Part shown: in pieces, positions 45,790 through 48,914 of the stretch | Layout: each line of letters starts with the position of its first letter | How positions within the stretch are numbered: position 1 is the first letter of the stretch | NCBI RefSeq assembly: GCF_964019385.1 | Contig: NC_088654.1 | Span: 3,116,550 to 3,180,549, forward strand | Direction of reading: 5' to 3' | Length of the DNA: 64,000 nucleotides | Source of the DNA: Sycon ciliatum | Taxonomy: Eukaryota > Porifera > Calcarea > Leucosolenida > Sycettidae | Translations under genes and position numbers: made by a program | Notes under the pieces: model-generated | Databases searched by the model: none | Told to the model about the DNA's origin: nothing | Seen by the model: the letters and a program-made list of their open reading frames with translations, nothing else

Positions 45790-46297
45790 GTGGAAGAGAA
45801 AAGGACATATGGATACGAGTTAAGAGTAACTCTCCATCACTGTAACATGATACTATATACAGTCAGAAAGTGCAATAACTAGGCACAAAACTGACAGAGT
45901 ACTGAAACATTCGACGTCCTGACACCTAGCTTCAACACATCTCCGTAGCGCTAACCGACAGCCTTCCAACTTGGAAGGTTCAAGGTTATGGAAAAGACCA
46001 AAGAGGGGAAGGCAAGCGCAACGAAAACGAGCAAAAGCCACAGTCCCAACGGAACAAAGAATGTCGATTGTTACTGGACGATGACGAGACCAGTACGATA
46101 TTTGACAAAGCGGTCTAACTACAATTCGAAGCAGCAAAGCAGCACACCACCCAACTTGGGTGGGTCATAAATATCAAAGATAAGTAAAACAAGGGAAGCT
46201 TTGCGAAAACGAATTGTACAAGCCGAAAGCCAAACTCCTACAGTACTCCTCAATCATGACATTGTGATGGACTAGTTGACTACAAAACAAGTTGTTT

Positions 46298-46346
46298 CAC
46301 ACGACGTACGTTTCGCCGTATGGTTCGTGACGGCTCATCAGGTGTG
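46298..46346 (-). ncRNA. Type I hammerhead ribozyme (unit A1)
   Basis: On the minus strand: CACAC, CTGATGA, GCCGT, 10-base loop, ACGGC, GAA, ACGTACGT (stem III), C17, GTGTG. Conserved core complete. The same 49-base layout as 46899-46947. Confidence 0.92.
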
Positions 46347-46898
46347 CAATTTGAAACTCGGATGTTGAGCCATAAATAAATGTGGAAGAGAAAAGGACAT
46401 ATGGATACGAGTTAAGAGTAATTATCCATCACTGTAACATGATACTATATACAGTCAGAAAGTGCAATAACTAGGCACAAAACTGACAGAGTACTGAAAC
46501 ATTCGACGTCCTGACACCTAGCTTCAACACGTCTCCGTAGCGCTAACCGACAGCCTTCCAACTTGGAAGGTTCAAGGTTATGGAAAAGACCAAAGAGGGG
46601 AAGGCAAGCGCAACGAAAACGAGCAAAAGCCACAGTCCCAACGGAACAAAGAATGTCGATTGTTACTGGACGATGACGAGACCAGTACGATATTTGACAA
46701 AGCGGTCTAACTACAATTCGAAGCTAGGTGTCAGGACGTCGAATGTTTCAGTACTCTGTCAGTTTTGTGCCTAGTTATTGCACTTTCTGACTGTATATAG
46801 TATCATGTTACAGTGATGGAGAGTTACTCTGAACTCGTATCCATATGTCCTTTTCTCTTCCACATTTATTTATGGCTCAACATCCGAGTTTCAAATTG

Positions 46899-46947
46899 CA
46901 CACCTGATGAGCCGTCACGAACCATACGGCGAAACGTACGTCGTGTG
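46899..46947 (+). ncRNA. Type I hammerhead ribozyme (unit B2)
   Basis: Stem I CACAC (46899-46903) with GTGTG (46943-46947); CTGATGA 46904-46910; stem II GCCGT/ACGGC with loop CACGAACCAT; GAA 46931-46933; stem III ACGTACGT 46934-46941; cleavage-site C at 46942. Outside stem I a 6-base bulge (AAATTG) separates CACAC from GTTT, which can pair with AAAC after GTGTG. A bulge in stem I facing loop II is where natural type I hammerheads make their tertiary contact. Confidence 0.93.
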
Positions 46948-47490
46948 AAACAACTTGTTTTGTAGTCAACTAGTCCATCACAATGTCATGCATGAGGAGT
47001 ACTGTAGGAGTTTGGCTTTCGGCTTGTACAATTCGTTTTCGCAAAGCTTCCCTTTCTTTACTTATCTTTGATATTTATGACCCACCCAAGTTGGGTGGTG
47101 TGCTGCTTTGCTGCTTCGAATTGTAGTTAGACCGCTTTGTCAAATATCGTACTGGTCTCGTCATCGTCCAGTAACAATCGACATTCTTTGTTCCGTTGGG
47201 ACTGTGGCTTTTGCTCGTTTTCGTTGCGCTTGCCTTCCCCTCTTTGGTCTTTTCCATAACCTTGAACCTTCCAAGTTGGAAGGCTGTCGGTTAGCGCTAC
47301 GGAGATGTGTTGAAGCTAGGTGTCAGGACGTCGAATGTTTCAGTACTCTGTCAGTTTTGTGCCTAGTTATTGCACTTTCTGACTGTATATAGTATCATGT
47401 TACAGTGATGGAGAGTTACTCTTAACTCGTATCCATATGTCCTTTTCTCTTCCACATTTATTTATGGCTCAACATCCGAGTTTCAAATTG

Positions 47491-47539
47491 CACACCTGAT
47501 GAGCCGTCACGAACCATACGGCGAAACGTACGTAGTGTG
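47491..47539 (+). ncRNA. Type I hammerhead ribozyme (unit B3, A at cleavage site)
   Basis: Identical to B2 except that the nucleotide at the cleavage site is A (triplet GTA rather than GTC). NUH sites with A are permitted but often slower. Confidence 0.9.
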
Positions 47540-48082
47540 AAACAACTTGTTTTGTAGTCAACTAGTCCATCACAATGTCATGCATGAGGAGTACTGTAGG
47601 AGTTTGGCTTTCGGCTTGTACAATTCGTTTTCGCAAAGCTTCCCTTTCTTTACTTATCTTTGATATTTATGACCCACCCAAGTTGGGTGGTGTGCTGCTT
47701 TGCTGCTTCGAATTGTAGTTAGACCGCTTTGTCAAATATCGTACTGGTCTCGTCATCGTCCAGTAACAATCGACATTCTTTGTTCCGTTGGGACTGTGGC
47801 TTTTGCTCGTTTTCGTTGCGCTTGCCTTCCCCTCTTTGGTCTTTTCCATAACCTTGAACCTTCCAAGTTGGAAGGCTGTCGGTTAGCGCTACGGAGATGT
47901 GTTGAAGCTAGGTGTCAGGACGTCGAATGTTTCAGTACTCTGTCAGTTTTGTGCCTAGTTATTGCACTTTCTGACTGTATATAGTATCATGTTACAGTGA
48001 TGGAGAGTTACTCTTAACTCGTATCCATATGTCCTTTTCTCTTCCACATTTATTTATTGCTCAACATCCGAGTTTCAAATTG

Positions 48083-48131
48083 CACACCTGATGAGCCGTC
48101 ACGAACCATACGGCGAAACGTACGTAGTGTG
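48083..48131 (+). ncRNA. Type I hammerhead ribozyme (unit B4, A at cleavage site)
   Basis: Same sequence as B3, including the GTA triplet. The following partial unit (48640-48669) stops before its ribozyme. Confidence 0.9.
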
Positions 48132-48914
48132 AAACAACTTGTTTTGTAGTCAACTAGTCCATCACAATGTCATGCATGAGGAGTACTGTAGGAGTTTGGC
48201 TTTCGGCTTGTACAATTCGTTTTCGCAAAGCTTCCCTTTCTTTACTTATCTTTGATATTTATGACCCACCCAAGTTGGGTGGTGTGCTGCTTTGCTGCTT
48301 CGAATTGTAGTTAGACCGCTTTGTCAAATATCGTACTGGTCTCGTCATCGTCCAGTAACAATCGACATTCTTTGTTCCGTTGGGACTGTGGCTTTTGCTC
48401 GTTTTCGTTGCGCTTGCCTTCCCCTCTTTGGTCTTTTCCATAACCTTGAACCTTCCAAGTTGGAAGGCTGTCGGTTAGCGCTACGGAGATGTGTTGAAGC
48501 TAGGTGTCAGGACGTCGAATGTTTCAGTACTCTGTCAGTTTTGTGCCTAGTTATTGCACTTTCTGACTGTATATAGTATCATGTTACAGTGATGGAGAGT
48601 TACTCTTAACTCGTATCCATATGTCCTTTTCTCTTCCACATTTATTTATGGCTCAACATCCGAGTTTCATTTATTATTTAATCGAAATTTTCAAAATTAC
48701 TCGTTACATTACCTAAGAATAATAAAGAAAACGCCCAGAAAGAAACGGCCTTCACCGATAAAAATTGGCACGAAGAAACTTGAGGACCACACGAAGACAC
48801 TCTTGTCAAAGATTTGTCCACCAAGGAAAGGACAACGACTCAGGAGGACTCTACTTCCATATTTAACTGATTTGTCCAAAAATTGCGACATGTCCAAAAA
48901 TTGCGAATCACCTC

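Follow-up and report, generated by a model that had tools for sequence, protein, structure and literature searches.

A non-coding hammerhead retrozyme family of the calcareous sponge Sycon ciliatum with Penelope-type insertion ends and probable mobilisation in trans

Which machinery inserts non-coding, ribozyme-bearing repeats into an animal genome? The question is raised by an array of 592-bp units with hammerhead ribozyme motifs in a 64,000-nucleotide stretch of the calcareous sponge Sycon ciliatum (assembly GCF_964019385.1, contig NC_088654.1, positions 3,116,550 to 3,180,549, forward strand), here called the window. We propose from sequence comparison that the array belongs to a non-coding metazoan retrozyme family that is very probably moved in trans by the reverse transcriptase (RT)/GIY-YIG protein of a Penelope-like element (PLE). 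A 2020 review describes metazoan retrozymes as lacking a conserved motif that points to an autonomous mobiliser (PMC7761336), and PLEs were earlier candidates on the grounds of co-occurrence and common hammerheads (PMC7229834). In a literature search by title and abstract opening, in which most subscription papers are missing, no report of PLE-type ends on retrozymes was found.

The whole array appears to be a single insertion. Reading of 45000-49500 and comparison of the unit with the window show two head-to-head arms of 592-bp units spanning 45790-48668, and blastn pieces of the array match the reference unit at 98.7-100% identity. The 592-bp units with type I hammerhead motifs named in the preliminary description are real. 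Its tandem array is right in that units repeat, but 935 bp at the left run in the opposite orientation, and the arrangement is head-to-head. That description also passed over an 11-13 bp duplication, a truncated copy of the unit at 7074-7371, and the two-armed structure with one end of each kind described below. The duplication, [TC]ATTTATTATTT, stands on both sides of the entire two-armed array; in random AT-rich 22-mer pairs from the window, a common word of at least 11 letters has a chance of ~0.1%, and one of at least 13 a chance of ~0.04%. Because this duplication flanks the whole, the array is most simply one insertion. Unit positions are counted from the base right after the hammerhead cut (position 1) to 592. 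At the arm ends, 1-3 bases are common to target and unit and cannot be assigned to either, and the mapping script gives one base more per outer end.

Table. Features of the retrozyme array and its relatives in the window (cleavage position, H17; z, z-score of the predicted fold).
Feature	Positions	Strand	Remarks
Left target-site duplication ATTTATTATTT	45779..45789		13 bp with TC at 45777-45778 included
Left arm	45790..46724	minus	935 nt, unit positions 171 to 513; outer 3' end at the S site
Type I hammerhead	46298..46346	minus	H17 = C at 46303; predicted cut between 46303 and 46302
GAAGC microhomology at the head-to-head junction	46720..46724		5 bp
Right arm	46720..48668	plus	1949 nt, unit positions 370 to 542, 3.3 units; outer 3' end at the T site
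Type I hammerhead	46899..46947	plus	H17 = C at 46942
Complete 592-nt unit between two cleavage sites	46943..47534	plus	Fold -174.7 kcal/mol, z -4.0
Type I hammerhead	47491..47539	plus	H17 = A at 47534
Complete 592-nt unit	47535..48126	plus	
Type I hammerhead	48083..48131	plus	H17 = A at 48126
Right target-site duplication ATTTATTATTT	48669..48679		
Second copy of the unit, 5'-truncated	7074..7371	minus	94% identity; 3' end at the S position (by-eye alignment), then AATAATAAT
Family 2, divergent relative of about one unit	24708..25340	plus	Approximate boundaries
Family-2 hammerhead	24932-24980	plus	Stem III ACGATCGT; divergent

Two-armed insertions of this family end once at each of two fixed unit positions. 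The preliminary description had proposed a genome-wide search for the unit. Across 538 Mb in 313 contigs, the unit gave 910 candidates, of which the best 40 were scored (178 matches), and arms were mapped in 39 loci: the window and 38 further genomic loci, which carry L numbers here. The outer 3' ends fall at S, near unit position 513, and at T, near 545; the two sites lie ~32 nt apart in (ATT)n targets and 29 nt apart in the window array, with a hairpin, GGCUC-AACAUCC-GAGUU, predicted between them. We found 43 head-to-head pairs distributed over 37 of the 39 loci. With end windows of 500-528 for S and 535-552 for T, picked after the arm-mapping output had been seen, both ends are placed in 35 pairs, all of which combine S with T (18 T/S and 17 S/T, with no S/S and no T/T). 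Four of the remaining eight lie at the edge of the examined stretch (the first pair of L033, the second of L042, the pair of L062 and the first of L068). In L034, L040 and L046 the S-side end is at 491-495 and fits once the S window is widened; in L032 one arm is interrupted by 954 nt, and the pair fits when this insert is bridged. With these adjustments, S+T holds in 39 of 39 pairs clear of the edge. The insert in L032 (2650-3603) lies within one retrozyme arm; where the unit goes on behind it, a few bases occur a second time (455/459), resembling a short target duplication.

A second query, from another subfamily, gave the same result. Its 748 candidates (best 39 scored; 207 matches, 150 used) led to 52 arms, with 12 head-to-head pairs, at positions that the first set does not contain. 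Both ends are listed in 11 of the 12 pairs, and all 11 are S+T. Among the 52 arms, a 3' end is visible in 45 (22 at S and 23 at T, ~32 nt apart), leaving seven without. The two kinds of arm also differ in length in the first set: the T arm is longer in 30 of 39 pairs, with medians of 1099 nt for T vs 433 nt for S (Wilcoxon p 0.0066). The six one-armed insertions clear of the edge (L056, L058, L059, L061, L062 and L068) all end at T; the one-armed window copy at 7074-7371 ends at S. These data hint that the T site is used before S.

Insertions are concentrated at AT-rich microsatellites. In the 16 nt examined on either side of 39 insertions, perfect (ATT)n/(AAT)n flanks occur on both sides in 24, on one side in five and on neither in ten, so that (ATT)n adjoins at least one side of 29 of the 39. 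Tracts of (ATT)n/(AAT)n of at least 15 nt make up 75 of the 64,000 window bases. Eight other targets, not wholly repetitive, have duplications of 11-14 bp (14 in L040; 13 in L046; 12 in L043, L047, L048 and L054; 11 in L049 and L064), and the target in L031 is (TA)n.

The genome contains a PLE whose insertions follow the same architecture. Canonical PLEs are defined by RT and GIY-YIG in one open reading frame (ORF) (PMC11167929). The assembly encodes a Sycon ciliatum PLE protein (LOC135824335, contig C10), and the Sycon ciliatum protein P0140 matches Pfam RVT_1 at E 1.2e-07 and GIY-YIG at E 0.0031. A motif scan of the collected loci located an ORF in L027 in which RT motifs precede GIY-YIG; its Pfam matches (RVT_1 E 0.007, GIY-YIG E 0.067) are both below the cut-off. 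A genome search with the 3' end of this PLE gave 1167 candidates (best 40 scored, 44 matches), and 16 regions were compared. PLE 3' ends come in two forms, one 28 nt longer than the other, leading into (AAT)n or (ATT)n; in L069 the 3' end runs into AATAATAAT. All three head-to-head PLE pairs (L076, L082 and L085) have one end of each form. L077 likewise has one PLE end of each form, but in a tail-to-tail arrangement, and was excluded from the pair count. Locus L072 has a PLE S-type end, then one (AAT)n tract and then what appears to be a retrozyme S-side end of opposite orientation, as would be seen if a PLE and a retrozyme had entered one microsatellite.

The known signature of PLE insertion comprises two internal RT starts, extension of both strands, cutting at ATT, and a tail that corresponds to the stretch between the starts (PMC11167929). 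Pen2a of Adineta vaga (PMC3846280) and Poseidon of Anolis (PMC11167929) share with the Sycon retrozyme inverted arms, target duplication, an optional tail of ~31 bp on one arm, AT-rich or ATT targets, internal RT starts and an association with type I hammerheads. The sponge element is unlike PLEs in having no ORF of note, a 5-bp stem II, an 8-nt palindromic stem III, and arms that circle the unit several times. The array itself is not a PLE, and its ends provide strong sequence evidence for PLE-type insertion machinery.

A search of the window with four PLE proteins and two stretches of PLE DNA detected no PLE, and no ORF with RT and GIY-YIG was found in the array or the window. The view of the preliminary description that the units are mobilised in trans is supported by this; a PLE is present elsewhere in the genome. 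Its statement that the window holds no RT for the units does not hold to the letter, for two highly similar LINE (long interspersed nuclear element) RT ORFs lie on the minus strand at 2046-4097 and 37279-39247, the second split; the protein of the former is 98% identical to EukProt scpid30462, an identifier of the series used for Sycon ciliatum (PMC6526912).

Family variants are nearly always uniform across the units of an insertion, and this bears on the template. At 29 sites polymorphic between insertions (43 pairs), 973 of 977 insertion-by-site cells with at least two units are uniform, where 725.6 would be expected from random draws, and both arms agree in 695 of 698 two-arm cells. At 40 sites with one deviating insertion, 1286 of 1299 cells are uniform and the arms agree in 943 of 948. 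Variants that mark single insertions recur in units of both arms, among others 226G in L037, 571T in L044, 370A in L045, 370A/481A in L046, 370A with a deletion at 499 (591-nt units) in L051, an added TTT at 307 in L058, and 195G/390G in L064. It is as if one monomeric, probably circular, RNA had been copied repeatedly. Arms exceed one unit in 48 of 78 cases and reach 4171 nt in the examined loci and 5607 nt with the second query. Their 5' ends show no clustering at the hammerhead cut (three of 78 within 10 nt, vs 2.6 expected). The usual template is therefore not a cleaved linear monomer. A circle fits these sequence data best, and a uniform multimer is also compatible with them. The arms of L040 differ at 144, 373, 499 and 500, unlike those of most insertions; two RNA templates may have been used in one event there.

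The array units carry the hammerhead motif CACAC-CTGATGA-GCCGT..ACGGC-GAAA-CGTACGT-H-GTGTG, three times on the plus strand and once on the minus, with a stem II of 5 bp. The preliminary description had a full consensus in every unit; all four motifs are present, and it did not remark that the cleavage position, H17, is A in two of them. In the covariance check that it suggested, Rfam gave no hits in the whole window at gathering scores. With E-values, Hammerhead_1 lists two of the four array copies in 45000-49500 (26.8 bits, E 0.0018), below the gathering score of 34, and neither H17 = A copy at E<=1 in that interval. Against the type I model, the motif of family 2 reaches 25.5 bits (E 0.00091). 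Among 111 loose-pattern matches in the array region and loci L031-L085, position 17 is C in 103, T in four, A in three and G in one. Stem III is ACGTACGT in 104 of the 111; two of the other seven belong to a third family, and the remainder may be chance matches.

A dimeric mode of action is probable for the ribozyme. Three families have a palindromic stem III of 8 nt, namely ACGTACGT in the array, ACGATCGT at 24932 and, in the third, an element of L069, ACAGCTGT. The TA to AT change between the array and the 24932 stem III preserves pairing solely between two molecules, and this argues for a dimeric ribozyme. Computed folding energies support a dimeric hammerhead in part (-32.4 for the dimer hammerhead vs -8.9 kcal/mol per monomer hammerhead); the best dimer fold is at -37.5. 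Folded as a single strand, the 81-nt region of the hammerhead did not form one (z 0.27).

On the features tested, the array is a metazoan non-LTR (long terminal repeat) retrozyme except for its longer unit. Metazoan non-LTR retrozymes likewise consist of tandemly repeated non-coding units, each with one type I hammerhead, and have a GC content below 50%, target duplications above 4 bp, a weak stem III and highly self-paired RNA (PMC7229834). The retrozyme kinship suggested and the lack of coding capacity stated in the preliminary description are both supported: GC content is 43.6%, and the longest frame, with the unit read as a repeat, is 103 codons stop-to-stop and 60 from ATG. Self-pairing predicted for the full unit is strong (z -4.0), as reported for animal retrozymes (PMC7229834). 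The preliminary description took the known units to be mostly shorter. Expressed animal retrozymes have reported units of 170-400 nt, which 592 nt exceeds, and the discussion of the same paper gives circles of 150 to >1000 nt (PMC7229834). At 592 bp the unit lies outside the reported metazoan range of about 150-450 bp, which we take as a range and not as a defining limit. The Sycon units (592 nt, and 843 bp in the L069 family) also differ from the retrozymes of that report in their host, a calcareous sponge, and in their two-armed, ordered insertions with S and T ends.

Amphibian satellite and axolotl retrozymes of 330-350 bp resemble the Sycon element in a helix III that is very weak and has a palindromic tetraloop, and in a probably dimeric ribozyme; they differ from it in unit length, host phylum and sequence (PMC7229834). 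Plant LTR retrozymes are also non-autonomous, with hammerhead-processed circles of 600-800 nt, and are thought to be moved by Gypsy-type elements; unlike the Sycon element they have a type III hammerhead, LTRs and a 4-bp duplication (PMC7229834, PMC7761336).

We propose the following route. Multimeric transcripts would be cut by the hammerhead, probably as dimers, into 592-nt monomers, which would then be closed into circles. The PLE RT/GIY-YIG protein would take this RNA in trans and cleave AT-rich DNA, preferably (ATT)n. Both cut strands would prime reverse transcription, each at its own fixed internal site, T for one and S ~32 nt away for the other, as the insertion ends suggest. Each RT would travel round the template, producing arms of up to several units, and the two complementary DNAs (cDNAs) would join head-to-head, often through a few bases of microhomology. 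In a more specific form of this proposal, which we regard as evenly poised between right and wrong, one monomeric circular RNA is copied by a PLE RT dimer from both target strands at once: each strand would prime on T or S of the same circle, and the cDNAs would roll until they meet. If true, such a two-headed rolling-circle, target-primed integration explains the one S and one T end, the variants shared between arms, and the multimers of metazoan retrozymes.

The template is the point at which another explanation comes closest. A PLE might instead copy the multimeric transcript of a donor array in uncleaved form, with the hammerhead playing a minor part in mobility. In vitro, hammerhead mutations do not affect insertion by an anole PLE, and the dominant substrate is apparently RNA that has not been processed (PMC11167929). 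Donor arrays are themselves uniform, so their transcripts would be too, and uniform units are equally expected from them. Nevertheless, units re-homogenised at each insertion require a monomer bottleneck somewhere, and sites polymorphic in the family are hardly ever mixed within an insertion (the 973 of 977 cells above), which leads us to consider an uncleaved template unlikely. A LINE-type mechanism, twin priming, would account for head-to-head arms, microhomology and target duplication through 5' inversion by a LINE RT, and LINE RT ORFs do occur in the window. Head-to-head arms with microhomology resemble LINE inversions, in which the second priming point is variable and may be anywhere internal. 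However, the outer ends here lie at two fixed places in 39/39 and 11/11 pairs, and a PLE of this genome obeys the same S/T rule; twin priming is contradicted by these fixed ends, and we reject it as highly improbable. Satellite DNA, made tandem by unequal crossing-over and inverted by rearrangement with the hammerhead as a passenger, would agree with the tandem units and with the newt satellite repeats from which animal hammerheads were first known (PMC7229834). Yet the insertions are dispersed, with target duplications or (ATT)n targets, have non-integral arm lengths and fixed S/T ends, and carry family variants that are uniform within each. We rejected a satellite origin on account of the dispersed insertions with target duplications and give it next to no credence.

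Several observations weigh against mobilisation by a PLE from a circular monomer. Both samples comprise the best candidates alone (40 of 910 and 39 of 748); three of the 39 pairs require the wider S window; and the second-query data omit terminal pieces below ~286 nt, hiding any end upstream of S. The lowest-energy structure of the isolated hammerhead is not the hammerhead fold. Where cells contain any minority-base unit, 73 of 119 are uniform and 61 of 97 are alike in both arms. The 46 non-uniform ones comprise 44 single-unit changes, which are as expected from later mutation or RT error and speak against an uncleaved multimer, and two that are mixed among several units: window position 592 and L040 position 500. 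In the window, the cleavage position is C in the left arm and the first right unit and A in the other two, as might come from a mixed multimer, and the left arm is changed at 49, 50, 113 and 114 where the right arm is not. The window array therefore ranks among the untidy insertions. Lastly, the PLE and retrozyme tails, compared for one PLE family, have no significant sequence kinship (797 of 2000 shuffles as good), and that family may not be the retrozyme's partner; blastn of the PLE against the remainder of the unit likewise gave no supported kinship (best E 0.096). Since the tails are unrelated by the shuffle test, what retrozyme and PLE have in common is architecture, not sequence.

With mobilisation by a PLE-type protein as the preferred reading, the S/T rule would be a signature linking animal retrozymes to their mobiliser, and it can be searched for in any animal genome with retrozymes. 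The rule of one S and one T also constrains PLE integration, itself poorly known. For reconstituting the reaction, the RNA (592 nt, start sites known) and its target, (ATT)n, are now defined.

Next to the PLE in L069 (936-2130) lies a further hammerhead retrozyme family, with stem I CCTCTA/TAGAGG, stem III ACAGCTGT and 843-bp spacing. Its arms are head-to-head (936-1976 minus, 1977-2130 plus) with AAT-rich flanks, and one end is longer, by 42 nt as judged by eye, in this one case. Rfam Hammerhead_HH9 scores it at 23.4 bits vs a gathering score of 52. The PLE itself has a hammerhead-like stretch, CTTGATGA...GAAAACGTT (L069, ~805-836), that is present in nearly all PLE alignment rows. It departs from the consensus, Rfam finds no hammerhead in it up to E 10, and it was not used as evidence.

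Other features of the window stand apart from the retrozyme. An ORF of 260 aa at 10842-11624 has no Pfam match at E 0.001. Downstream of the array, at 48987-49046, there is a near-perfect hairpin, GTCTACAGTCCCA...TGGGACTGTAGAC, with a partial repeat ~190 bp further on (about 49180-49206). It matches Rfam mir-299 at E 0.3-0.5 only and is perhaps a small inverted-repeat transposon; the Rfam MIR4228 and mir-299 matches appear to be inverted-repeat artefacts. A tandem duplication of 107 bp, with 99% matches, lies at 34605-34823.

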